In this document: one piece after another, positions 16,007-57,861 of the stretch | Position numbering within the stretch: the stretch's first letter is position 1 | Layout: each line of letters opens with the position of its first letter | Assembly: GCF_005849285.1 (NCBI RefSeq) | Contig: NZ_CP040517.1 | Location: forward strand, 1,184,501-1,248,500 | Direction: 5' to 3' | DNA length: 64,000 nucleotides | Source of the DNA: Luteithermobacter gelatinilyticus | GTDB lineage: Bacteria > Pseudomonadota > Alphaproteobacteria > Sphingomonadales > Emcibacteraceae | Notes under the pieces: model-generated | What the model was told of the DNA's origin: nothing | Databases searched by the model: none | What the model saw: the letters and a program-made list of their open reading frames with translations, nothing else | Translations under genes and position numbers: made by a program

Positions 16007-16012
16007 AACTTC

Positions 16013-16051
16013 CGGGGTGAATTGAGCCAATCGATGCACAATTCACTCTAA
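16013..16051 (-). repeat. CTAG-type palindromic repeat, inverted orientation
   Basis: Read on the minus strand, the segment TTAGAGTGAATTGTGCATCG then ATTGGCTCAATTCACC matches the dispersed family (arms AGAGTGAATTG and CAATTCAC, conserved asymmetric centre TTGGCT). The outer CTAG is partly lost. It lies 6 bases after the phosphomannomutase stop. Confidence 0.8.
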
Positions 16052-17032: not shown

Positions 17033-17072
17033 TTAGAGTGAATTGTGATGAGGTTGACGCAACTCACTCTAA
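17033..17072 (+). repeat. CTAG-type palindromic repeat
   Basis: The left arm TTAGAGTGAATTG (17033-17045) pairs with the right arm CAACTCACTCTAA (17060-17072) with one mismatch. The centre TGATGAGGTTGACG is a diverged form of the family centre. The outer CTAG has become TTAG/CTAA on both sides, so pairing is kept. It lies about 100 bases upstream of clpS. Confidence 0.8.
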
Positions 17073-30156: not shown

Positions 30157-30196
30157 CTAGAGTGAATTGTGAATAGGTTGGCTCAATTCACTCTAG
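30157..30196. repeat. CTAG-bounded palindromic repeat, intact copy
   Basis: This 40-bp element has perfect 13-bp arms CTAGAGTGAATTG (30157-30169) and CAATTCACTCTAG (30184-30196) around the asymmetric centre TGAATAGGTTGGCT. It lies 9 bases after the rnr stop and about 120 bases upstream of rpmG. Confidence 0.92.
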
Positions 30197-39756: not shown

Positions 39757-39842
39757 GGAACCTACATAGCTCATTGGATGTTATTTGCAATATTTTCTTG
39801 AAATACCCCCCGGATATAATATTAATGGACATAATATATATT

Positions 39843-39930
39843 CCTAGGGGTGCCATGCGGCTGAGAGGCAGTTTTCCTGTCGACCCTTAGAACCTGATCC
39901 GGTTGATACCGGCGTAGGGAAGGGATAGCG
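39843..39930 (+). promoter_or_regulatory. TPP riboswitch upstream of thiC
   Basis: The THI-box core is complete. AGGGGTGCC starts the element, CTGAGA (39861-39866) is the pyrimidine-sensing loop, ACCCTTAGAACCTGATC follows, then GGTTGATACCGGCG and the closing AGGGA. It lies about 80 bases upstream of the thiC start. Thiamine pyrophosphate binding should reduce thiC expression. A near-consensus -10, TATAAT at 39815-39820, lies just before it. Confidence 0.96.
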
Positions 39931-39933
39931 TGA

Positions 39934-41886
<1,953 letters not shown>

Positions 41887-42224: not shown

Positions 42225-42301
42225 GATAGCTATTCACCCACACAGGAATAGCTATCCTCCGTAGGAGAACTGGCTGCCGTCTTTTGACGGCAGCCTTTTT
42301 T
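42225..42301 (+). ncRNA. Structured RNA element with terminator, copy 1
   Basis: This 77-nt element has stem 1 (GATAGCTATT 42225-42234 with AATAGCTATC 42247-42256, perfect), then CCTCCGTAGGAG, which can form a tiny CTCC-GTA-GGAG hairpin. A perfect 10-bp terminator stem GGCTGCCGTC/GACGGCAGCC (42272-42295) with six T closes it. Copy 2 at 54510-54585 shares the core ATCCTCCGTAG, the loop CACACAG and the terminator stem. It is the only strong structure in 41887-42564, apart from the small frame just before it; 42302-42564 shows nothing definite. Confidence 0.65.
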
Positions 42302-42564
42302 ACTTCGGGTGTTCATGTTCGCCGATCCGTTGAGTATTGAATGGCCCATAAAATATTAAGACCCTTAAGATCGATAAATCCGCCAGTAGACAATTATTTT
42401 TTTTGAATTTACCTTTTGCCTTGATTTTCTGCAGTTTTCTGTGGGAAAGGCCATTGTGATTTTACTGAGAAACACAGGGTAAAAGGCTATAAATCTTTTT
42501 ACGGAGGAAGCCGGAGATTTGCGGGACGTAAGTTCTGTACATCCGTAATTTCTGGCACATAGAG

Positions 42565-43155
42565 ATGAAAGATAACAATAAAAATCTCCAACATAACAAC
42601 AGCCTTGTGGAAGGGCTGTACAGGGAACACAGCCAGTCCCTGAAAGGGTATGTGTATAACTTCCTGCAATCTGAAAATGAGGCAGAGGAGCTGACACAGG
42701 AAGCTTTTTTAAAGTTCCATAATGCAAAAAATCCGGAAGCAATCCGGTCTCCGAAGGCGTTTTTATTTCGGATCGGGCACAATTTGGCCATGAAGGCGCT
42801 GCGCCGGAAAAAAATCGTAAAATTTGAAAATGGCCTGGATCTTGATCAAATGACATTAGAAAGCAGGGAGCCTTTGGCCGATCAGCGTCTTAGCTCAAAA
42901 CAGGAATATCGGCTGTTTTGTGAGGCGGTGCTGAGCTTGCCGCCCAAATGTCGGCAGGCGTTTACACTCAGAATGATTTACCGGATGTCTTATAAAGATA
43001 TTTCTGACAAACTTGGCATTTCCGTCAGTACGGTTGAAAAACACGTGCTGAAAGGCATGCGGGATTGTCAGCAGTATATGGAAGCTCGAATGAAACAGAC
43101 TTCTCCCGCGCACAACCAAAAAACTGCCAAGGGTGATGCTGTTCGTTCTTCATAA
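42565..43155 (+). CDS. ECF RNA polymerase sigma factor, FecI-like
   Basis: This 196-residue sigma-70 family protein has region 2 at about 15-85 (LYREHSQSLKGYVYNFL, then EAEELTQEAFLKFHN) and region 4 at about 115-165 (LPPKCRQAFTLRMIYRMSYK, then ISVSTVEKHVLKGMRD). The FecI-like form of region 4 and the FecR gene 90 bases downstream indicate cell-surface signalling: the sigma factor is held or activated by FecR and transcribes TonB receptor genes. The ribosome binding site (AGAG) is weak. Confidence 0.92.
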   Translation: MKDNNKNLQHNNSLVEGLYREHSQSLKGYVYNFLQSENEAEELTQEAFLKFHNAKNPEAIRSPKAFLFRIGHNLAMKALRRKKIVKFENGLDLDQMTLESREPLADQRLSSKQEYRLFCEAVLSLPPKCRQAFTLRMIYRMSYKDISDKLGISVSTVEKHVLKGMRDCQQYMEARMKQTSPAHNQKTAKGDAVRSS

Positions 43156-43245
43156 AAACAGTAAAAGAAATAAAACAAACAATAAATATAATATACAATA
43201 ATATAATAATAAAAAGACAAAACAACCTACGGAAGAGATGAGAGT

Positions 43246-44403
43246 ATGGGTGGTAAAATATCTGTAGAAGATCAGGCCAGACAGTGGTATCTGCGCCTGC
43301 AGGAAGGGGTTGATGATGACCAGGTCAGAGGGGAGTTTGAGCGCTGGCTCAAGGCGGATGAAAGGCATTTTGCCAGTTTTAAAAAGGTTGCTGTCTTTTG
43401 GGGCACCATTGAGGACCTTCCTGATCTGATCTCTTGTGGTGCGGCCGCAAGGCAAAAAGAACCGGATCCAGACCTGTTTCTCAAATTGGCCAATGCTAAT
43501 GAAACAGACCAGGCTATTCAGGCCGGGATGGCTAAACAGCCAGCGAAAGAGGGGGCGCGTGTCGTTCCTGTTAGGTGGTGGAAAAAGCGCCATCGGGGCT
43601 GGTTTTTCTCAGATTTACAAAAAAAGTACGCTGCGGCGGCAGCGTTTCTTCTGGTGGGGGTGTTCTCCTATTATTTATACCAATCATGGATGCCGGAGGG
43701 GACGTTCAGAACCGGTGTAGGCGAGCAGTTGACCGTCACACTTGATGACGGGTCGGTTATGCGCCTCAACACAAATACGCGGGTGCGGGAAGAATATTCA
43801 GAAAAACTGAGGAAGGTACGACTGTTACGGGGGGAAGCCAGCTTTGAGGTGAGCAAAGATGAAACGCGTCCCTTTGTTGTGGAAACGGATCACGGGGTGA
43901 TCATGGCCGTGGGGACGTCTTTTAACGTCTATGAAACTTCGGGCAAGGTGGAAATCATTGTTCTCGAGGGTACTGTTGCCGTAGGTCAGGGGCAAACTCT
44001 GCCGCATATGCAGCCGCTTGCGGTTCAGGAAAAGATCAAACAAGAAAAGAGCCGCCCAAGGGACAGGGATATGGTTTTGCTGTCTGCAGGTGAGAAGGTC
44101 TATGCTTATGAAAACAAACTGGGGTTAGTGGGGCGGGCCAGCCAACTGGAACTGGATAAAAAAACACTATGGCCGCAGGGAAAAGTGATTTTCCGGGGAC
44201 AGGCTTTGGCCGAAGTCGTAGAGGAAATGGCCCGATATAGTAACCGTAAAATTATCATCACTGATCGCAGAGCCAAAGACATGAAAATGGGCGGCGCTTT
44301 CGAAATTGATGACTTCGACGCCTTTATCAGTGCCGTAGAGGACGCTTTTCCGGTAAAAGTTATTCGTATTACCCCCTTGCTTACGGTTATTGTGGAAGCA
44401 TAG
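43246..44403 (+). CDS. FecR-family anti-sigma/transmembrane sensor
   Basis: This 385-residue inner-membrane regulator has a DUF4880-type cytoplasmic region (about 5-60, QARQWYLRLQEG), one membrane helix near residue 135 (YAAAAAFLLVGVFSYYLYQSW region), and a periplasmic FecR domain (about 155-250, FRTGVGEQLTVTLDDGSVMRL). A C-terminal STN-like domain (about 305-385) should contact the signalling domain of the receptor. It relays receptor occupancy to the sigma factor encoded just upstream, and the receptor with the STN domain follows 33 bases later. Confidence 0.92.
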   Translation: MGGKISVEDQARQWYLRLQEGVDDDQVRGEFERWLKADERHFASFKKVAVFWGTIEDLPDLISCGAAARQKEPDPDLFLKLANANETDQAIQAGMAKQPAKEGARVVPVRWWKKRHRGWFFSDLQKKYAAAAAFLLVGVFSYYLYQSWMPEGTFRTGVGEQLTVTLDDGSVMRLNTNTRVREEYSEKLRKVRLLRGEASFEVSKDETRPFVVETDHGVIMAVGTSFNVYETSGKVEIIVLEGTVAVGQGQTLPHMQPLAVQEKIKQEKSRPRDRDMVLLSAGEKVYAYENKLGLVGRASQLELDKKTLWPQGKVIFRGQALAEVVEEMARYSNRKIIITDRRAKDMKMGGAFEIDDFDAFISAVEDAFPVKVIRITPLLTVIVEA

Positions 44404-44436: not shown

Positions 44437-47400
44437 ATGTTTCCATTACGCTTTCATGAATGGAAAAACCGCTACAGGTTTTACAAAGACACCGTTGTGT
44501 CTTTGTGTTTTTTTTGTGTTTTGGGCGTTGCTGCAACGTTATTTCCGGAAAACGCAGCTTTTGGCGCACAAGACTCTGTTGTGCCTGTTGAGCTACCCCA
44601 TCCAGTTCAGGAAATTCATATTAGGAAGGACTTGGCCACCCTTGCGGATACACTTCTTCTATTTGCCCAACAGACCGGTGAAGAGATTATTTTCCCTTAT
44701 GACAGAGCCCGGCAGTATCCGGCCAAAGGTCTGAAAGGGCGTTATACGTCAACCGGGGCATTGGCGGTGCTGCTGAAAGACACGCCGCTCATTGCTTATC
44801 GCAATGCAGAGAATATTATCATTATTCGGTTTGATCAGGCCAAAGCCCGGGGCCTGCGGGAGAAACGCCGACAACGACCCCGGTCCTCTCAGCCAGACAA
44901 TTTGTCTGCCTCTCTTACAGAAACTGTAGAGCTTGATGCCGGGGATCTTCCCGTAGAAGAATTAGTAATTACCGGCTCCCGTCTTGAACGTAAGGAGTTT
45001 GTCACACCTACTCCCCTGGCGATCATTTCGTCTGACCTAATCAGGACAACTGGAAGCACGAATGTGGAAACCATTCTCAATAAGTTTTCTCAGGTACTTC
45101 CGGGCTTGACCGCTCATTCCAATAATCCGGGAGATGGCACTGTAACGCTGGATCTCAGGGGGCTGGGGACGAGCCGCACATTGGTGCTGGTGGATGGAAA
45201 GCGTTATGTGGCCAGTAATCAGGCGGGGATTATTGATCTTAATGCCATTCCCACTGTGTTGGTCAAAAAGGTTGAAATCGCCACGGGCGGAACTTCCGCG
45301 GTCTATGGATCAGATGCGATTTCCGGCGTGGTGAATTTTATTCTCAAAGATGACTTTCAGGGCGGTCTGCTGGACACTCAATACAGTATTTCCAATGCAG
45401 GAGATGCCGAGAAATGGCATGCAGATGCGGTGTTTGGCGGCGATATTGCCCAAGGCAGAGGCAATTTGTTTTTGCATGTTGGGTATCTTGAAAGGCAGGC
45501 ATTATTGCAGGGGGAAAGGAGGTTCTCCAGTTATGCGTTGGGTGATGGATTTATTGTGCCAGGCAGTGCCGATCCGGATTTTGGCTTTGGTCTTCCATCC
45601 CGTCCGAGTGAAGGCGGCGTTCCCGGATTGATCCGTCTGGGAAGCGGCGCTATTCCAGAAACCCGGATAATTGGTGTATTTCCTACGGGCCCTTATCCGG
45701 GTCTTGAGCGCTTTGGACCTCAAGGGGAGTCCCTGCCCTATAGAAGTGAGGAACACTCTTTCAATTATGCGCCCGATAACTTTCTTCAGCTGCCACAAAA
45801 AAGGTGGATGACTACCTTGGGTGGTAAATATGAGATTTCGGACGCTTTGCGGCTGCAAAGCCGATCGACCTTCGTGCATAATAGGGTTGACACAAAACTG
45901 GCGCCAACCCCAGCTTTTATGGGGGAGGTTCTGGTCCCGGTGGAGAATCCCTTTCTTGCCGAGGACAGCCGGGCGGCGCTGCGAGGTCTTGACTGGTATG
46001 GCACGGGGGACATTATTCAAGCTCGAAATGGGGCTGGCGAGCTTTTGTTTCATGCGGATGGAACGCCGGTACAGGCGCGCCAGGCGTTGGGTGTTGTCTA
46101 TGATGAGCAAGGAAATGTTCTATCAACCCAGGCGCTCTGGAATGATAATGGAACACCAGTGGTTGCGACAGGTGTGCCGGACCCTGATGTGACCGGCAGA
46201 CTGTTGTTCCAGGCAGATGGCAAAGCACTTATTCCGTTTCTGGGGCGGCGCATTCAGGAAATCGGGACACGAAAATCTTTAAATGACCGAGACAGTTTTA
46301 ATACGGTTTTCAGTTTTGAGGCCGATCTGTCCGCGCGCTGGCAGTGGTCGGGATATTATAATTACGGCCATTATTCCCATGAACAACACAATATCAACGA
46401 TGTTTCGGAACAGAAGCTGCGTCAGGCGCTGAACATTATAGAACTGGACGGAGAATATGTTTGTGCGGATGAGGCGGCGCGTGCAAAAGGGTGTGTGCCG
46501 GCAAATATTTATGGAGCGGGCAACCTTTCACCTGAGGCTTTGGCGTATATTGGCATCAATACTTTCAGCAAGACCACATATGAGCGACAGGTGGCAAGTA
46601 CTCAGATTTCCGGCTTTCTTGATATGTCATGGTTGGGGGGAGAGGAAAAAGAGCCAGCACAGTTTCTGTTCGGGGCGGAGTGGCGCAAGGAAAGCAGTCA
46701 TTTTAAAACCGATGAGGCGGTCAGTAGCGGGGATGTTCTGGGATTTAATATCAATCAGGGGGCCAATGGCAGTTATGCTGTGCTCAGCCTGTTTGGCGAA
46801 TTTGCTCTCCCGCTGATTTCAACCGGGGCCGACGGACAGAAGCTGGAACTTTCCGGGGCTTTCCGATACTCCGATTTCCAGACGTCTGGGGTTAACTGGT
46901 CCTATGCGGCAGGGGTTTTCTGGTCCCCGGGAAGTGGGATAAGTTTGAGAGGGCAGTATCAGCGGGCGGTTCGCGCTCCCAATATTGACGAGCTTTTTTC
47001 CGGTAAAATGGAAACGTTTAGTGAAGTTATGGATCCTTGTGCGGCACGTTATGCGGAGGCTTCTGAAATGCTTGTTCCGCTATGTGAAGCGACGGGGGTG
47101 CCTGCTGGTGAAACAGGGCATTTTACCCAGGCTAGTGGCCTGATTAGAATTAGTTATTCTGGTAACCCTAATCTGAAAGAAGAATTTTCGGATACTTTTA
47201 CGACCGGTCTGGTGGTGCGTCCGGATCAGTTTGGAAACTTTCAACTGACCCTGGATTATTATGATATCACCCTGCATGACCGGATTGATATTCTGGCCGG
47301 TGGCGCTGCAAATGTTTTTGCCCTCTGTTATTCCGGTAATAATCCTGAGAGTCCTTATTGTCAGGCGATTCACCGTCTTCCGGATGGCAATCTGAATTAT

Positions 47401-47958
47401 CTGGACCTCACCCTTGAAAATCAGGGCAAGGCCCACACCAATGGATTTGATTTGCAGATATTCTATTCCCGGGCGGTGGAATGGGGATTGTTCACTGGAG
47501 GCAGCAATCTGGATTTTTATTTTCAGGGCAGCTATGTGCTGGGCTTTCGCCTTGATCCAGCGGTAGGTCTTCAGGGCCCCGATTGTGTTGGCTTTTTTGG
47601 TGGGATTTGCGGAGATCCCTATCCGCGGCTGCGGTTTATGCAACTGACCAGATGGGAGACAGGACCGCTAAGCCTGACATTAAGGTGGCGTTTTATGGGA
47701 GCTGTCAAAGATGCGGCTCAACTGGAGGGCCTGCGACCGGATCAACTTGCTGTGCCGGATATTCCTGCACAACATTATTTTGACCTCTATGCCACATATG
47801 AGGTTTCTGAGCAGATTTCTCTGCGTGGCGGGGTGGACAATTTATTGAACAATATGCCGGAGTTTATCGGATCAAGCCAGCAGCAGGCGAATACCTTTCC
47901 AAACGTTTATGACGTATTGGGGCCTTATTTTTACATGGGCCTTCAGCTCAAATTTTAA
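44437..47958 (+). CDS. TonB-dependent transducer with N-terminal STN domain
   Basis: This 1173-residue outer-membrane protein has an N-terminal signal peptide (to about residue 44), an STN (secretin/TonB short N-terminal) signalling domain at about 58-132, a linker, a TonB-box-like EELVITGSR (174-182), a plug domain (about 185-300, with LDLRGLGTSRTLVLVDGKR and SAVYGSDAISGVVNFIL), and a large 22-strand-type barrel ending in a terminal Phe (YFYMGLQLKF). The STN domain marks it as the transducer for the upstream FecR/sigma pair. The ligand is unknown. It lacks the strong GGAGG of the next two receptors. Confidence 0.93.
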   Translation: MFPLRFHEWKNRYRFYKDTVVSLCFFCVLGVAATLFPENAAFGAQDSVVPVELPHPVQEIHIRKDLATLADTLLLFAQQTGEEIIFPYDRARQYPAKGLKGRYTSTGALAVLLKDTPLIAYRNAENIIIIRFDQAKARGLREKRRQRPRSSQPDNLSASLTETVELDAGDLPVEELVITGSRLERKEFVTPTPLAIISSDLIRTTGSTNVETILNKFSQVLPGLTAHSNNPGDGTVTLDLRGLGTSRTLVLVDGKRYVASNQAGIIDLNAIPTVLVKKVEIATGGTSAVYGSDAISGVVNFILKDDFQGGLLDTQYSISNAGDAEKWHADAVFGGDIAQGRGNLFLHVGYLERQALLQGERRFSSYALGDGFIVPGSADPDFGFGLPSRPSEGGVPGLIRLGSGAIPETRIIGVFPTGPYPGLERFGPQGESLPYRSEEHSFNYAPDNFLQLPQKRWMTTLGGKYEISDALRLQSRSTFVHNRVDTKLAPTPAFMGEVLVPVENPFLAEDSRAALRGLDWYGTGDIIQARNGAGELLFHADGTPVQARQALGVVYDEQGNVLSTQALWNDNGTPVVATGVPDPDVTGRLLFQADGKALIPFLGRRIQEIGTRKSLNDRDSFNTVFSFEADLSARWQWSGYYNYGHYSHEQHNINDVSEQKLRQALNIIELDGEYVCADEAARAKGCVPANIYGAGNLSPEALAYIGINTFSKTTYERQVASTQISGFLDMSWLGGEEKEPAQFLFGAEWRKESSHFKTDEAVSSGDVLGFNINQGANGSYAVLSLFGEFALPLISTGADGQKLELSGAFRYSDFQTSGVNWSYAAGVFWSPGSGISLRGQYQRAVRAPNIDELFSGKMETFSEVMDPCAARYAEASEMLVPLCEATGVPAGETGHFTQASGLIRISYSGNPNLKEEFSDTFTTGLVVRPDQFGNFQLTLDYYDITLHDRIDILAGGAANVFALCYSGNNPESPYCQAIHRLPDGNLNYLDLTLENQGKAHTNGFDLQIFYSRAVEWGLFTGGSNLDFYFQGSYVLGFRLDPAVGLQGPDCVGFFGGICGDPYPRLRFMQLTRWETGPLSLTLRWRFMGAVKDAAQLEGLRPDQLAVPDIPAQHYFDLYATYEVSEQISLRGGVDNLLNNMPEFIGSSQQQANTFPNVYDVLGPYFYMGLQLKF

Positions 47959-48025: not shown

Positions 48026-48219
48026 ATCAAAGTTGTTGAAAAAGAAGTATTTTTTTCATTTTGACATGGTGGTTTCCGCTCCTTTGAGGGTCTTGGGTTT
48101 CAAGAAATAAAGATTCAGGAGGACGCCTTGCGCAGGGAAAGTATATCCTGCAGCATTCAGCTGTGCTTTTGGCGTTCCTCCAAAAAAGAATCACTAAAAC
48201 CCAACCTACAGGAGGAAAA
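48026..48219 (+). promoter_or_regulatory. 5' leader of receptor 2, duplicated with receptor 3
   Basis: Blocks shared with 51251-51433 include AAGTTGTTGAAAA, TGGTGGTTT, a GTCTT...AAGA...AAAGATTC stretch and CCAACC before the ribosome binding site (ACAGGAGGAAAAATG). The shared order suggests that the promoter and leader were duplicated with the gene start. A second AGGAGG at 48117-48122 lies inside the leader but no ATG follows it closely. No other gene is seen in 47959-48219. Confidence 0.55.
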
Positions 48220-51045
48220 ATGCCTAAAACCTTTTTTCATATTAACAGATATTTGAAAACCGGTGTGTCCGCGTTTGCGGTCCTCGGGACCTTATCTGTT
48301 GCAACTACTCCTTTCACAGCTATAGCTGCGGAAGAAGAAGAGCTGACCCTTGAAGAGGTGGTTGTTACCGGTTCCCGTATCAAGCGTAAGGATCTGACAG
48401 CCCCGAGCCCGGTTACCTTGCTTGACAGCAACGATGTAAAGGTTTCCGGTCTGAACCACGTTGGTGAACTGTTGAACCGGTTGCCGTCCGCAGGTGTACC
48501 GCCGGTATCCGATACCAACTCAAACTTCACCACAACTGCGACCGGGGCAACTATCCTGGACCTGCGTGATCTGGGTTCAGAAAGGACTCTGGTTCTTGTA
48601 AACGGCCGGCGTCACGTTGGCGGTTTGGCTGGTGGTCCGCAGGTGGACGTGGCGATGATTCCGACGGCAATGATTGATAGAATCGAAGTGGTCACTGGCG
48701 GGGCTTCTGCCGTGTATGGTTCTGAAGCCATTGCCGGCGTTGTAAACCTGATCCTGAAAGACGACTTCGAAGGCGTTGAGTTTAACAGCCGCTTCGGTAT
48801 CAGTGATGAAGGTGACGGGGAAGAATACGACCTTGGGGCTACTGTTGGTGGAACCTTCGGGGATGACCGCGGTAGCGCCATCCTGCATTTCAGCTATAAC
48901 AAGAAGGAAATGATCGAGTCCAAGGATCGTGATTTCTCCAAGTCAGATACGTTCCTGGATGACAATCAGGCCTTTAGCTCCTTCCCTCCGCAGGGGCATT
49001 TCTTTATCCCGGGACAGTTGCGCGGTTTTACACTTGATCCGGCAACCGGCCTCTTTAATAAGCCCTTTGTTAGTTCTGAAGACGGCTTCAACCGGAATGC
49101 TTTCCGTTTGATCCGCGTTCCCACAGAACGTTATCTGATGAGCGCTAAAATTGACTACGATATCGCTGATGGTCACGAGTTTTTCATTGAAGGCGCTTAT
49201 TCAAGACTTCAGTCAGATTCTCGTCTGGAGCCGACCATCACGGGGCAGTTCATTTCTGTGGGGAATATCCCGAACATCAACCTGCCGGTTGATAACCCGT
49301 TCATTCCGGCTGAACTTCTGGCTCTTATCCCTGATGGGACAGAAGAGATTACCTTCCGGAAACGTTTTCTTGAGCTAGGCCCGCGGACATCCGATGCCCA
49401 GCGTCAGACCTTCCGTGTAGCCACCGGCTTCAAAGGGGACATCGATGAGAACTGGTCTTATGATACGTATTATACGTTTGGGGTTACTACCCAGGATCAG
49501 ATCAATGGCGGTGTGTTCAACTCCCAGAACTTCCTCAATGGCCTGAATGTGGAAGCCGATCCGGATAACCCTGGTCAGTTCCGCTGTAAGGATGCGCTGG
49601 CACGTTCACAGGGGTGTGTTCCGATCAACGTCTTTGGTGTAGGCAGCATCTCTCAGGAAGCGATCGATTATGTAAGTACGCCTGAGTCATTCACCTCTCG
49701 CTTGACCCAGCATGTGGTTGCAGGATCTGTTACCGGTAATCTCCTGACGCTTCCCGCTGGTGATGTCGGTGTTGCTTTGGGTGCTGAGTATCGCAAGGAG
49801 AAAAGTGAAGACAATCCGGATGCTCTGGCTCAGCTTGGGATTACCTCAGGTAACTCCACACCTGCTACCAACGGTGAATATGATGTGAAAGAATTCTTTA
49901 GCGAAGTGCGGGTTCCCGTGCTGGCTGATGCGGCTTTCGCAGAATATTTAGGAGTTGAAGGGGCAATCCGTTATGCGGACTACAGCACTGTTGGCGGTGT
50001 ATGGTCCTATAAACTCGGCGGTGAATGGTCTCCGATTTCGGATGTGCGTATCCGCGGTGGGTATTCCCGTGCCGTCCGTGCTCCTAACATCGATGAATTG
50101 TTTAATGAAGGTTCTGAAACCTTCCGTTCTGTTGATGATCCATGTACCAAAGGCGGTGAGGGGCAGCCCCAGATCGTTAAAGATCGCTGCGCTACAATTC
50201 CGGGTGTGGACGAAAACTTCGATCCGGGGGCCGCAGGGATCCGGAGCGCCGGTGGTTTTGCCTCAGGCAATCCTGACCTGAATGAAGAAACCGCCGACAC
50301 GTGGACTATTGGTGCGGTTGTTCAGCCGGAAGCTGTCCCGGGTCTGTCTCTGACTGTTGATTATTTCAACATCACTGTTGATGATGCGATCAACAGTTTC
50401 TCAGCTCAGACAACTGCTGAACAGTGTCTGCTGCAGCCGGATTTCCCCAACAACCCGTTCTGTGAACTGATCCAGCGTGATCCTGTCACAGGGCTGATCC
50501 TGCGCATTGATGCCAAGGAAATCAATGTGGCCACGTTTAAAACGGACGGCATTGACTTCTCTATCAATTATGACGTTGATGCGGATGTATTAGGTCTGGG
50601 TGAAGGGGACTTCAACTTCAACGTCATCGGCACTTATATGTTCTCCAACAACTTCACGCCGTTTGAGGGGGGTGAGGTCATTGAAGAAGCCGGTGAAGTT
50701 GGGCTCAGCAAACTGAAATTCAATACGCGGGTTACCTACAACCGTGACAATTTCAGCATTTCCTGGGGAACAAGGTTGATTGGCTCTGCTGTTATTGACA
50801 ACACCATCACGACCGACGACTTTGCCGGTAATGATGTTGGCGCACAGTGGTACCACGACCTTTATGCCAGCTATAATGTGCTTGAAAACGTTCAGCTTTT
50901 TGGTGGTGTAAACAACGTGTTTGATAAAACACCGCCGGCCGTTCCGGCTCCCTTTGACCAGAATGTGACGGGTACTGTTACCGCCGCTGACGTTTACGAC
51001 GCCGTAGGCCGGTACTTCTATTTCGGTGTGACCTCACGGTTCTAA
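48220..51045 (+). CDS. TonB-dependent receptor 2
   Basis: This 941-residue outer-membrane receptor starts at 48220 (GGAGG 4 bases upstream). The signal peptide runs to about residue 37, then acidic EEEELTLEEVVVTGSRIKRK supplies the TonB-box region (45-53), a plug follows (about 55-170, LDLRDLGSERTLVLVNGRR and SAVYGSEAIAGVVNLIL) and a barrel ends YFYFGVTSRF. There is no STN domain. The signal peptide is nearly identical to that of receptor 3 while the barrels differ. The substrate is unknown; siderophore, carbohydrate or oligopeptide uptake are all possible. Confidence 0.93.
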   Translation: MPKTFFHINRYLKTGVSAFAVLGTLSVATTPFTAIAAEEEELTLEEVVVTGSRIKRKDLTAPSPVTLLDSNDVKVSGLNHVGELLNRLPSAGVPPVSDTNSNFTTTATGATILDLRDLGSERTLVLVNGRRHVGGLAGGPQVDVAMIPTAMIDRIEVVTGGASAVYGSEAIAGVVNLILKDDFEGVEFNSRFGISDEGDGEEYDLGATVGGTFGDDRGSAILHFSYNKKEMIESKDRDFSKSDTFLDDNQAFSSFPPQGHFFIPGQLRGFTLDPATGLFNKPFVSSEDGFNRNAFRLIRVPTERYLMSAKIDYDIADGHEFFIEGAYSRLQSDSRLEPTITGQFISVGNIPNINLPVDNPFIPAELLALIPDGTEEITFRKRFLELGPRTSDAQRQTFRVATGFKGDIDENWSYDTYYTFGVTTQDQINGGVFNSQNFLNGLNVEADPDNPGQFRCKDALARSQGCVPINVFGVGSISQEAIDYVSTPESFTSRLTQHVVAGSVTGNLLTLPAGDVGVALGAEYRKEKSEDNPDALAQLGITSGNSTPATNGEYDVKEFFSEVRVPVLADAAFAEYLGVEGAIRYADYSTVGGVWSYKLGGEWSPISDVRIRGGYSRAVRAPNIDELFNEGSETFRSVDDPCTKGGEGQPQIVKDRCATIPGVDENFDPGAAGIRSAGGFASGNPDLNEETADTWTIGAVVQPEAVPGLSLTVDYFNITVDDAINSFSAQTTAEQCLLQPDFPNNPFCELIQRDPVTGLILRIDAKEINVATFKTDGIDFSINYDVDADVLGLGEGDFNFNVIGTYMFSNNFTPFEGGEVIEEAGEVGLSKLKFNTRVTYNRDNFSISWGTRLIGSAVIDNTITTDDFAGNDVGAQWYHDLYASYNVLENVQLFGGVNNVFDKTPPAVPAPFDQNVTGTVTAADVYDAVGRYFYFGVTSRF

Positions 51046-51250: not shown

Positions 51251-51433
51251 TTGAAGTTGTTGAAAAGGTTGCGTTTTTCTCCGTATTTTTCTGACGGGCG
51301 TATGGTGGTTTTTCTTCGTCAGAGAGTCTTAGGGGTAAGAAAAAAGATTCCGGAGAACGGCTTATACCAGGATTCATGTCTTGCCGCTCTTTGACACAAG
51401 GAATTACCAAAACCAACCCTAAGGGAGGAAAAT
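51251..51433 (+). promoter_or_regulatory. 5' leader of receptor 3, duplicated with receptor 2
   Basis: This is the counterpart of 48026-48219, with the shared blocks TTGAAGTTGTTGAAAA, TATGGTGGTTT, GTCTTAGGGG and AAAAGATTCCGGAGAA, and AAAACCAACC before AGGGAGGAAAATATG. It follows an AT-rich stretch (51181-51250) that could hold the promoter. No gene is visible in 51117-51433. Confidence 0.55.
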
Positions 51434-54370
51434 ATGCCTAAAGCTATTTTTCATATAAACAGACGTCTGAAAACCGGTGTGTCCGCACTTGCGGTCCTCG
51501 GGAGTTTATCTGTTGCGACATTCCCGCTCACGGCTGTGGCAGCGGAAGAAGAAGAGGAATTAACCCTCGAAGAAGTGGTGGTGACGGGTTCACGCATTCA
51601 ACGTGAAGACCTGACAGCCAACAGCCCGGTTTCTGTGCTTGAGGCCGGTACCATTAAAATGACCGGCACCACCAATGTGGAAGAATTCCTGCGCGACATT
51701 CCCCAAGCTGTAGCAGGCATTGGGGCCCAGGCCAATAACGGCAATGACGGCGGCGCCACCGTTGATTTGCGAAACCTGGGTGAAGAACGCACGCTTGTCC
51801 TGGTGGACGGCAAACGTTTTGTGCCGTTTGATAACCAGGGGTTTGTGGATCTCAGCATGATCCCCACCAGCCTGATCGAACGGGTTGAAGTGGTCACCGG
51901 CGGGGCCTCTGCGGTGTATGGGTCTGACGCTATTGCCGGTGTTGTCAACTTTATCATGCGCGACGACTTCGAAGGTCTCGAAATGGATGCCCAATACGGT
52001 ATTTCCGAGCGGGGTGACGGTGAACGAGCTGATTTCAGCGTGACCGTCGGTGGCAGCTTTGCCGGAGATCGCGGCCATGCGGTGCTCAATATCGGCTATA
52101 CGGACCAGAAAGCCGTGACCCAGGGTGATCGGGAGTTTTCCGAATTTGCCCTGGCCGCAGCAGACTTTTCTCCGGGCGGCAGCTTCACCACGCCGGACGG
52201 GGTGATTGATGGCACCTTTGCGCTGGTTCCCGATCCTAATGGCGATCAAGCGGTCTCCTTTGATCAAAACGGCAATCTGGTGCCGTTCGCAGGCACTTTC
52301 AACTTCAACCCCTTTAACCTGCTGCAAACGCCGCAGAAAAAATGGACCGCCACGGCGTTGGCCACCTATGACGTGACCGATAATATCGAATTCTACAGCC
52401 GGGCGTCCTTTGCCAACAACCAAGTACGCACCATCATTGCGCCGACGGGAACCTTTTTCTTCCCGTTCTCGCTGAACCTGAACAACCCGTTCCTGTCTGC
52501 GCAAGCGGTGAATGCGCTGACCGATCAGGATGGAGATGGTGTTGTTGATGCCGAGTTCGATGCCGACAGTGACGGTGTGGTTGATCCTGATGCCAATATT
52601 GATATTGCTTTCGGACGGCGTTTGCCGGAAATTGGCACGCGTGATTCCATTTATGAAAATACCGCTTATCAGTTTGTTGGCGGCTTTACCGGAGACCTTA
52701 GCGACGGCATTGTCTGGGATGTGTTTGCCCAGTATGGTCGTACCAAACGGACCCAGAACTTCGTCAATGACGTTAGCTTCAGCAAGGCCCAGCAGGGCAT
52801 GCGGGCAATTACGGATCCAGTTACCGGGGAAATCGTCTGTGAAGACCCCAGCGGCGGGTGCGTGCCGGTAAACTTCTTTGGCGCCGGCAATATTTCCGAG
52901 GAAGCCGCACGCTTTATCGCCCTGAACCTGGCAGAGGTCAATAATACGGAGCAAACCATTGTGGGTGGCTCGTTGACCGGTGATTTGCCGCTGCAACTGC
53001 CGAGTGCGTCAAACCCCGGGGCGTTTGCCGTGGGCTTTGAGTACCGCAAGGAGAGCAACGAATCCCTGCCAGACGATAACCTGGTCAGCGGCAACAGCAT
53101 CGGTTTCGGCTCCAGTACGCCGGTAGATGCGAATTTTCGGGTCTGGGAATTTTTTGCCGAAACCAAGATCCCGTTGGTTCAGGACGCCACCTTTGCCGAA
53201 TCCCTGGTGCTGGACGCTGGGGTGCGTGTAGCGGATTATCAGAACACGGTTGGCAATATTGAAAATAGTTTCACCAACTGGACCTATAAGATTGGCGGGG
53301 AATGGGCGCCGATCAGTGATCTGCGCTTCCGCGGCATGTTCCAGCGGGCCGTGCGTGCGCCGAACTTGAGGGAAATCGGTTTGCCGAAAACCCCCAGTAC
53401 GGGTGACCTGACCACGGATCCTTGTGCAGGGGCCAATCCGGTCGGGAATGCGGAACTGACAGCCTTGTGTATTGCAACCGGCGTGCAGCCTGATGATATC
53501 GGTACGGTAAACGGCCCGATTTCAGGACAGATCAATAACTTCCTGGGCGGCAACCCGGAACTGGAGCCGGAAAAATCCAACACCTTCACGCTGGGGTTCG
53601 TCCTTCAGCCGGAAGCTGTGCCCGGTCTGTCCGTTGCGCTGGATTATTACAGCATCGAGATCAAGAATGTGATCACCCAGTTCGCGGAACAGAGTGTCGT
53701 GGATGCCTGTTATAACATCGAAAAGGATGCATCCGGGGAATTCTGTCAACGGATCGCCCGTAACCCGCTCAACGGGTCCCTCAACGGGGGCACCGAAACC
53801 GGGGTGGATGTATCCTTGGAAAATGCCGCCTTTGACAAGACTCAGGGCATCGACCTGTCCATCAATTACGGTTTTGACCTGAATGATGGGGAAATGGGGC
53901 GTATTGACCTGGCGTTTACCGGCACCCATGTCATCGAGACGTTGACCCGGGATGCGGACTTCCTGGAGACGGATGATTGCGCCGGACTTGCCGGAACCAC
54001 CTGTCTGCGGCCTGATCCTAAATGGCGTTTCAACCAGACCGTTCAGTGGACCTATGATGCCTTGACCGTGTTCTTGCGCTGGCAGTATCTGAGCAAGGTC
54101 ACCAATGATACGGTTGCCTTTGGCGAAGCGGATGAATCAGATTTTGTCCAGCCGGTGATCCCTGCTGCACATTATTTTGATCTGAGCGCGTCTTATACGA
54201 TCAATGATAATGTGACGGTCCGGGCCGGAATCAACAATCTGTTTGATCGCCAGCCAACGGTTGTCGGGAATGACTTCGGCGGAACCACCGAAAACAGCGG
54301 GAACGTTTACCCTGCCGTTTACGATCCGATCGGCCGGTATTATTTCTTCGGCATCAATACCCGTTTCTAA
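51434..54370 (+). CDS. TonB-dependent receptor 3 with calcium-type loop
   Basis: This 978-residue receptor has a signal peptide like that of receptor 2, the TonB-box region LTLEEVVVTGSRI (43-55), a plug (VDLRNLGEERTLVLVDGKR, SAVYGSDAIAGVVNFIM) and a barrel ending YYFFGINTRF. Residues 364-384 hold two consecutive DxDxDGxxD-type motifs (DQDGDGVVD and DADSDGVVD), a calcium-binding pattern placed in a variable loop. There is no STN domain. It ends at a perfect terminator. Confidence 0.93.
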   Translation: MPKAIFHINRRLKTGVSALAVLGSLSVATFPLTAVAAEEEEELTLEEVVVTGSRIQREDLTANSPVSVLEAGTIKMTGTTNVEEFLRDIPQAVAGIGAQANNGNDGGATVDLRNLGEERTLVLVDGKRFVPFDNQGFVDLSMIPTSLIERVEVVTGGASAVYGSDAIAGVVNFIMRDDFEGLEMDAQYGISERGDGERADFSVTVGGSFAGDRGHAVLNIGYTDQKAVTQGDREFSEFALAAADFSPGGSFTTPDGVIDGTFALVPDPNGDQAVSFDQNGNLVPFAGTFNFNPFNLLQTPQKKWTATALATYDVTDNIEFYSRASFANNQVRTIIAPTGTFFFPFSLNLNNPFLSAQAVNALTDQDGDGVVDAEFDADSDGVVDPDANIDIAFGRRLPEIGTRDSIYENTAYQFVGGFTGDLSDGIVWDVFAQYGRTKRTQNFVNDVSFSKAQQGMRAITDPVTGEIVCEDPSGGCVPVNFFGAGNISEEAARFIALNLAEVNNTEQTIVGGSLTGDLPLQLPSASNPGAFAVGFEYRKESNESLPDDNLVSGNSIGFGSSTPVDANFRVWEFFAETKIPLVQDATFAESLVLDAGVRVADYQNTVGNIENSFTNWTYKIGGEWAPISDLRFRGMFQRAVRAPNLREIGLPKTPSTGDLTTDPCAGANPVGNAELTALCIATGVQPDDIGTVNGPISGQINNFLGGNPELEPEKSNTFTLGFVLQPEAVPGLSVALDYYSIEIKNVITQFAEQSVVDACYNIEKDASGEFCQRIARNPLNGSLNGGTETGVDVSLENAAFDKTQGIDLSINYGFDLNDGEMGRIDLAFTGTHVIETLTRDADFLETDDCAGLAGTTCLRPDPKWRFNQTVQWTYDALTVFLRWQYLSKVTNDTVAFGEADESDFVQPVIPAAHYFDLSASYTINDNVTVRAGINNLFDRQPTVVGNDFGGTTENSGNVYPAVYDPIGRYYFFGINTRF

Positions 54371-54392: not shown

Positions 54393-54422
54393 AACTGCAG
54401 CCATTTTGGCTGCAGTTTTTTT
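54393..54422 (+). terminator. Rho-independent terminator after receptor 3
   Basis: AACTGCAGCC and GGCTGCAGTT form a perfect 10-bp stem with a 5-nt loop, followed by a T tract. It starts 22 bases after the stop, so the RNA element downstream should have its own promoter. Confidence 0.93.
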
Positions 54423-54476
54423 CTGAAATACTGGAGGGTTTTAGAACCTGAAGGGTCATAGGTTGCAGAAGCGTGA

Positions 54477-54492
54477 TGCGAAACGTTTCGCA
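54477..54492. promoter_or_regulatory. 16-bp perfect palindrome, LacI-type operator-like
   Basis: TGCGAAACGTTTCGCA is a perfect palindrome with a central CG and resembles LacI/GalR/PurR-family operators (compare the PurR box ACGCAAACGTTTGCGT). It lies between the receptor 3 terminator and RNA element copy 2, about 18 bases before the latter. Confidence 0.5.
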
Positions 54493-54509: not shown

Positions 54510-54585
54510 GATAGCGATGATCCACACAGTCATGGCTATCCTCCGTAGAAGGGCTGGCTGCCGTCGCAATGACGGCAGCCTTTTT
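54510..54585 (+). ncRNA. Structured RNA element with terminator, copy 2
   Basis: This element has the same architecture as copy 1. Stem 1 (GATAGCGATGA 54510-54520 with TCATGGCTATC 54530-54540) has one internal mismatch. The core CCTCCGTAGAAG is the same except that the small hairpin is broken. The terminator stem GGCTGCCGTC/GACGGCAGCC is identical, with loop GCAAT instead of TTTT. Stem 1 differs in sequence from copy 1 but stays paired, which argues for a conserved RNA structure. It lies between receptor 3 and argG; no other gene is seen in 54371-54683. Confidence 0.65.
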
Positions 54586-57738: not shown

Positions 57739-57796
57739 GGTCTTGTCCTTACTGGTTTGTCTCTTTAATCCTGGGGCGGGTCCCGGGTTTTATCAT

Positions 57797-57826
57797 AAAG
57801 TGAATTGTGATTAGATTGACTCTAGA
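57797..57826 (+). repeat. CTAG-type palindromic repeat, partial tandem copy
   Basis: AAAGTGAATTGTGATTAGAT then TGACTCTAG preserves the left arm, centre and outer end but has lost most of the right arm. Its terminal CTAG (57823-57826) is shared with the intact copy that follows, so the two are arranged in tandem. Confidence 0.75.
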
Positions 57827-57861
57827 GTGAATTGTGAACAGGTTGGCTCAATTCACTCTAG
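57822..57861. repeat. CTAG-bounded palindromic repeat, intact copy
   Basis: This element has perfect arms CTAGAGTGAATTG and CAATTCACTCTAG around TGAACAGGTTGGCT. It differs from the 30157 copy by one base. It lies 84 bases upstream of the thiolase start. Apart from the three repeats, 57739-58038 shows nothing I can assign. Confidence 0.92.

Follow-up and report, generated by a model that had tools for sequence, protein, structure and literature searches.

The window analysed is a 64,000-nt stretch of the Luteithermobacter gelatinilyticus genome, and all coordinates below refer to it unless another genome is named. Two short elements, A and B, enclose a cluster made up of fecI (an ECF sigma factor gene), fecR and three TonB-dependent receptor genes. 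The thiC gene precedes element A and argG comes after element B, a neighbourhood of B that is also kept in the relative G001. The names thiC and argG come from reading the open reading frames, plus a TPP riboswitch at 39836-39937 (+) on the 5' side of thiC, with no BLAST search behind them. The genes between the elements are as follows.

42565-43155, + strand, fecI-type ECF sigma factor gene (Pfam Sigma70_r2 and Sigma70_r4_2)
43246-44403, + strand, fecR gene (Pfam FecR)
44437-47958, + strand, TonB-dependent receptor 1 with a long N-terminal extension (Pfam Plug at residues 190-298, and barrel)
48220-51045, + strand, TonB-dependent receptor 2 (Pfam Plug and barrel)
51434-54370, + strand, TonB-dependent receptor 3 (Pfam Plug and barrel)

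The label FecI for the sigma gene at 42565-43155 rests on the adjoining fecR and receptor genes. A signalling (STN) domain is not called in receptor 1 by Pfam at E 0.001. The whole genome of 3.15 Mb holds an hfq gene and 45 TonB receptor plug-domain matches.

The two elements share one architecture, a hairpin followed by the anti-Shine-Dalgarno (anti-SD) core (C)CUCCGUAG and an intrinsic terminator.

42225-42301, + strand, element A: hairpin 42225-42256, core UCCUCCGUAG 42255-42264, terminator stem 42272-42295 and T run
54510-54585, + strand, element B, between receptor 3 and argG: hairpin 54510-54540, core 54539-54548, terminator stem 54556-54580 and T run

From their sequence they look like a small RNA with an anti-SD core. 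The string TCCTCCGTAG is exact at 42255-42264 and 54539-54548, and in a fold of 42225-42303 the core of copy A is partly hidden by a CUCC/GGAG mini-hairpin. A covariance model built from seven copies, both of these among them, scores A at 99.7 bits and B at 87.1 bits. The core reads UAUCCUCCGU in six of the nine copies now known; the variants are UAUCCUCCGC in G024, UGUCCUCCGU in G030 and AUACCUCCGU in the second copy of G002, and the GUAG half is kept in eight of nine. As to structure, 94.5% of cells are paired and 12 cells are changed on both sides, and neither value is reached in 500 shuffles. The pairs with both-side changes (four, three of them in the terminator helix) are no better than in shuffles, 169 of 500 being as high. 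The existence of the element RNA family is well supported. Within the presumed 5' part of the B transcript, a short hairpin at 54477-54492 (+) is followed by a T-rich stretch.

BLASTN finds the element in five of 60 genomes, the own genome included. With the covariance model nine copies appear at E < 1e-9 in six of 32 family genomes, seven of the nine being training sequences, and across 296 genomes of the order strong matches occur only in those same six. Eight other genomes of the order give matches of 27-35 bits that lack the core. Nineteen weak loci were inspected. Two are elements, namely the G030 copy and the second G002 copy (L048 9973-10069, -), whose hairpin sequence is largely different and whose CCTCCGTAG core is identical. 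The other 17 were rejected; they are without CCTCCGTAG and look like chance terminators, and one is the reverse strand of element A. We judge the carrier genomes to be relatives of Emcibacter. The element is seen in all four genomes with a fecI orthologue of at least 61% identity, near the fecI-fecR-receptor cluster. In G001 two copies flank fecI, fecR and receptor 1, and receptors 2 and 3 are absent from the cluster; in G002 the copy comes after the receptor 3 orthologue (83% identity); in G008 it comes after the fecI-fecR-receptor cluster with one gene intervening. Because of this placement in G001, G002 and G008, the element tracks fecI more than receptors 2 and 3. G024 and G030 (69 and 64% complete) carry the element with no fecI orthologue detected, and BLASTP matched none of the genes next to their copies to fecI, fecR, the receptors or argG (one neighbour in G024 reads N). 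Likewise, no fecI orthologue was detected beside the second G002 copy.

The starting point was the claim that the core pairs with the ribosome binding sites of receptors 2 and 3 and that a small RNA controls these two receptors.

48206-48216, + strand, ribosome binding site of receptor 2, CTACAGGAGGA, the reported match, three bases before the ATG at 48220
51419-51429, + strand, ribosome binding site of receptor 3, CTAAGGGAGGA, within which AGGGAGGAAA is the exact complement of the alpha-R8 10-mer UUUCCUCCCU

The pairing itself holds. The core UCCUCCGUAG of both elements forms ten pairs with 48206-48216 with one bulged A (duplexfold, -14.2 kcal/mol for the 10-mer), receptor 3 also has a match to the core at its ribosome binding site, and receptor 1 has no GGAGG before its start. 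The copy before thiC is present as CTACAGGAG, at 39994-40002, two bases off the 39996-40004 given previously. The background for the target prediction came from 460 kb of the own genome and comprised 353 gene start regions, with starts picked by best SD. By raw 10-mer energy receptor 2 looks special, since only 4 of 353 background genes are as good, compared with 19 of 353 for receptor 3 and 54 of 353 for thiC, and CTA(0-2 nt)GGAGGA occurs in none of the 353 background start regions. With opening costs, however, receptor 2 is equalled by 41 (A) and 78 (B) of 353, receptor 3 by 8 (A) and 13 (B), and receptor 1 by 216 (A) and 185 (B). With these costs included the pairing is thus unremarkable for receptor 2 and moderate for receptor 3, and the caution in the earlier note that the match might reflect a common ribosome binding site was justified. 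The element-linked receptor genes of G002 and G008 retain GGAGGA but not the CUAC extension, and in G002 the two cluster receptors are equalled by 77 and 109 of 174 background genes (opening costs). What survives of the proposal is a pair of genuine-looking anti-SD small RNAs; control specific to receptors 2 and 3 was rejected on the opening-cost ranks and the non-conserved extension.

Judged by complementarity, the fecI leader and a distant receptor gene, TBDR4, suit the elements better than receptors 2 and 3 do.

42494-42508, + strand, favoured target in the fecI leader, UCUUUUUACGGAGGA: 15 contiguous pairs (some G-U) with element B, -22.7 kcal/mol
43227-43236, + strand, minor target candidate before fecR, CTACGGAAGA: equalled by 14 (A) and 61 (B) of 353 background genes with opening costs; not conserved in G001

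With opening costs and equal windows of -90 to +15 for all genes, the own fecI leader, which was singled out after inspection, is equalled by 2 (A) and 2 (B) of 353 background genes. An earlier ranking gave 0 of 352 for both copies with a fecI window of -80 to +40 that was 20 bases longer than the background window of -60 to +40; for copy B it placed receptors 2 and 3 at 42 and 35 of 352. When each relative is taken with its own RNAs, fecI is equalled by 1 (A) and 3 (B) of 83 background genes in G001, by none of 74 in G008 and by none of 174 in G002, the latter set replacing an earlier one of 11-12 genes. The ranks in the four genomes are not independent because the genomes are related. Beyond GGAGGA the match extends to 11-16 pairs across the four genomes, interrupted in G001; in G002 the duplex has 16 contiguous pairs at -30.4. 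CGGAG is the longest invariant run in the four-leader alignment and is found in all four fecI orthologue leaders and in none of 13 paralogue leaders (13 of 14 paralogues, as L095, cut off by the start of its contig, was left out). The support for the fecI leader rests on this paralogue control and on repetition in three related genomes, and we consider the leader a likely but unproven target of the RNA. The duplex ends 52-66 nt before the fecI start codon and therefore the fecI ribosome binding site is not covered. The tail bases 3' of the core show no general covariation with the leader in a cross matrix. A clear preference for the cognate RNA is seen in G002 alone, and in G008 the leader forms a better duplex with the own-genome B than with the G008 RNA; tail-leader covariation as a general pattern was rejected. 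By eye, the loop CCCACACAG has partial complements about 55-62 nt upstream of the fecI site in the own genome, G001 and G008, and not in G002.

TBDR4 ranks even higher with opening costs, equalled by 0 (A) and 1 (B) of 353 background genes. Its extended SD CTACGGAGGA, perfectly complementary to the core, lies at L126 about 1100-1330 (G000:C1:405030-405260), and the finding was drawn from the 38 CTRCGGAGGA sites that six genomes have outside the elements. The exact CTACGGAGGA stands at the start of a receptor beginning MKSDxxSRLKYGVSA in the own genome, G001, G002 and G008; the G008 gene was absent from the hits of one search and is similar to the others chiefly at its N-terminus. G016 and G018, with no element detected, carry the identical start site, and the TBDR4 site is therefore not counted as evidence for the RNA. 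As proof of targeting it was rejected on the same ground. TBDR4 is a possible second target, and its site may be controlled by something else. There is no clear overall excess of CTRCGGAGGA, because its 46 sites in the six genomes, eight of them the elements' own cores, compare with 35 for the reversed control. The number is high in G008 (7 vs 2) and G030 (6 vs 0). In G002 the loci L150, L181 and L182 have identical sequence around CTACGGAGGA, perhaps a repeated mobile element.

Copy B shares an ECF-type promoter with receptors 2 and 3, a result that is well supported. Fixed-spacing GTGG-TTT...GGGTCTTG-like sites are common to the own receptors 2 and 3, two G002 receptors and one G008 receptor. 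A matrix trained on those five receptor sites alone, chosen and aligned by eye, was run on the 150 bases 5' of each RNA hairpin, with 1380 random and 340 gene-upstream windows as backgrounds.

48069-48096, + strand, ECF-type promoter of receptor 2 (training site)
51305-51332, + strand, ECF-type promoter of receptor 3 (training site)
54434-54461, + strand, ECF-type promoter of element B, GAGGGTTTTAGAACCTGAAGGGTCATAG, matrix score 21.3
42356-42383, - strand, ECF-type promoter-like site that reads away from fecI, antisense toward and through element A, matrix score 10.8

The scores of 21.3 for the own B, 20.4 for G008, 18.6 for G001 B and 14.9 for G002 exceed all background windows, whose maxima are 12.4 (random) and 8.4 (gene-upstream). 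The G024 score of 8.3 is only suggestive because background windows reach it (5 of 1380 random, 1 of 340 gene-upstream). The own A, G001 A, G030 and second G002 copies give no promoter signal with the matrix in the 150 bases before the hairpin. A promoter shared with the regulon, as expected of an ECF sigma-dependent small RNA, is thus found for copy B and for copies in four relatives, weakly in G024. A search pattern tailored to the sites of B, receptor 2 and receptor 3 matches the own genome exactly at those three places and nowhere else; when one mismatch is allowed the total rises to 12, near the reversed control (9). Among the 45 own-genome receptors a strong matrix match is found only at receptors 2 and 3, and the next-best receptor scores 6.7, a value that 3 of 340 gene-upstream windows reach. 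The G002 orthologue of receptor 2 scores just -2.7. From linkage, the FecI of the locus would be the factor that reads the promoters of B, receptor 2 and receptor 3.

The earlier note likened the elements to known alphaproteobacterial anti-SD RNAs, and the likeness holds for the architecture. The alpha-R8 / MmgR / SisA-D RNAs (Rfam RF00519, suhB) have in common with them the hairpin, an unpaired anti-SD 10-mer, an intrinsic terminator and a similar length. The alpha-R8 layout of weak hairpin, unpaired core and terminator is present, though here the hairpin is strong and the core of copy A partly paired. The likeness does not extend to the core, which is UAUCCUCCGUAG here and UUUCCUCCCU in alpha-R8; the alpha-R8 10-mer is absent from the elements, and eight of ten core bases are equal (by eye). 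Nor do the scores reach the RF00519 cut-off of 41 bits, with element A at 18.5, the G002 element at 25.4 and other sites of those genomes scoring likewise; element B has no RF00519 match up to E 5. Because of the score and the core, membership of alpha-R8 is excluded. Other sub-threshold Rfam matches, such as sbrA and ctRNA_p42d, were taken as chance. Among the genomes searched in the family and the order the elements are found only in Emcibacter relatives, and of six stretches matched in a collection scan two are alphaproteobacterial and four lie in unrelated phyla. They are also fecI-linked and have a shared ECF-type promoter; by contrast, no motif is common to the four Sis promoters (PMC12559287). 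By analogy, the elements may be placed beside alpha-R8 by architecture and presumed mode of action, not as members.

The own genome also has a canonical alpha-R8 RNA (G000:C1:2113032-2113106, -, 61.3 bits) with the core UUUCCUCCCU. With opening costs its pairing with receptor 3 is equalled by 3 of 353 background genes, better than that of the elements, and with receptor 2 by 59 of 353, about equal to theirs. On the fecI leaders the alpha-R8 pairing is equalled by 7 of 353 background genes in the own genome, 5 of 83 in G001, 45 of 74 in G008 and 61 of 174 in G002. TonB-dependent receptors are among the Caulobacter alpha-R8 targets, and one such RNA represses a receptor by pairing upstream of its start codon, as compensatory mutations showed (PMC12559287). 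Because of the exact complement, the rank of 3 in 353 and this precedent, alpha-R8 would be no weaker a candidate than the elements, should receptor 3 be controlled by an anti-SD RNA at all. Control of TonB-dependent receptors through anti-SD RNAs is also described for CrfA of Caulobacter; CrfA is a sponge with a G/A-rich loop, whereas the present element has the C-rich side (PMC12559287).

We lean towards the reading that the small RNA is produced under a FecI-class sigma factor and pairs with that factor's own mRNA, probably as negative feedback. Structure, distribution, promoter sharing and complementarity are computed; from them we infer the sigma factor involved, transcription and binding, the use of Hfq, and repression as opposed to activation. 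Elements A and B would be two copies of one trans-acting small RNA. Copy B would be made from its ECF-type promoter, presumably recognised by the locus FecI, alongside receptors 2 and 3, and its core and following bases would pair with the 5' leader of fecI mRNA over the 15 contiguous pairs, probably with Hfq. The pairing would most likely lower FecI synthesis and thus act as negative feedback on a surface-signalling sigma factor, the direction of control being a guess from precedent. Pairing at the receptor 2 and 3 start sites would be a side effect at most, with TBDR4 as a possible second target. FecI-class surface-signalling sigma factors have been described mainly with protein-level control. 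If true, the proposal would give a common bacterial uptake system a layer of RNA control and show how a few extra bases make an anti-SD core specific. A search of the literature by title, mostly outside subscription journals, on ECF factors, small RNAs and TonB receptors in alphaproteobacteria and on iron-starvation sigma factors and small RNAs, gave no title suggesting such feedback and no report of a FecI-type sigma factor with a base-pairing feedback RNA. The nearest parallel is provided by the sigma-E RNAs RybB, MicA and MicL/SlrA of E. coli, for which PMC4651636 and PMC8103513 describe feedback on the sigma response by ECF-driven RNAs that act post-transcriptionally on envelope genes. Those RNAs are gammaproteobacterial; here the sigma factor is of FecI type and the proposed target is its own mRNA leader.

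It is unlikely that the RNA instead blocks the ribosome binding sites of receptors 2 and 3 and so represses them. The ten pairs at receptor 2, whose raw energy with copy A is matched by just 3 of 354 background genes, the opening-cost rank of receptor 3 and the Caulobacter receptor precedent speak for such repression, and the shared promoter would make the RNA a brake on the receptors. Against it stand the opening-cost ranks of receptor 2 and of the two G002 receptors and the unconserved CUAC extension, and G001 retains both copies though its cluster is without receptor 2 or 3. Somewhat less improbable is a general anti-SD RNA, a divergent sibling of alpha-R8 that touches many strong ribosome binding sites and has no one main target. 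The shared architecture and the similar core agree with it, and the 45 receptors pair better with the core than the background does (mean -9.8 vs -7.2), although receptors have more start candidates, which favours strong SDs. It is at odds with the low RF00519 scores and the preservation of the GUAG half, and alpha-R8, which is without GUAG, ranks fecI and TBDR4 lower.

Two further explanations were weighed. The elements could act in cis and not as independent RNAs, A as an attenuator or terminator of fecI and B as one of receptor 3 or argG; each is intergenic before a gene and ends in a terminator-like hairpin. This is very improbable: receptor 3 seems to own a terminator hairpin before B at about 54393-54422 (seen by eye; the terminator scan did not list it), in five genomes copies are preceded by a promoter-like site of their own, weak in G024, the G024 and G030 copies adjoin genes with no BLASTP match to those of the locus, and core and hairpin are conserved apart from the terminator. 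Alternatively, the fecI leader site could be the ribosome binding site of a short leader peptide, matching the RNA by coincidence. GGAGGA does resemble an SD, and in G001 a GTG 5 nt after it opens 22 codons that run into the fecI start (by eye). No consistent start codon follows the site in the four genomes (by eye), however, and the match continues well past GGAGGA, so that we give this explanation little credence. Feedback of the small RNA on fecI remains our preferred reading.

The minus-strand site at 42356-42383 suggests an extension of this reading, which we put forward as a speculation that is probably wrong. FecI would drive both copy B, which pairs with fecI mRNA, and a minus-strand transcript from about 42356 through element A, whose antisense CUACGGAGGA would sponge B and A. 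If such a loop exists, one sigma factor would control both an RNA and its anti-RNA, and the locus would thereby tune its own gain. One of 1380 random windows and none of 340 gene-upstream ones score as high as the 10.8 found here, and the site has one mismatch to the three-site pattern. A counterpart scores 14.1 in G008 and a weak 0.3 in G001, and is seen in G002 by eye only. Elsewhere in the window, a 40-nt palindrome-like repeat family around GAGTGAATTGTGAATAGGTTGGCTCAATTCACTC occurs at 99-138, 16012-16051, 17033-17072, 30157-30196, 57795-57834 and 57822-57861.
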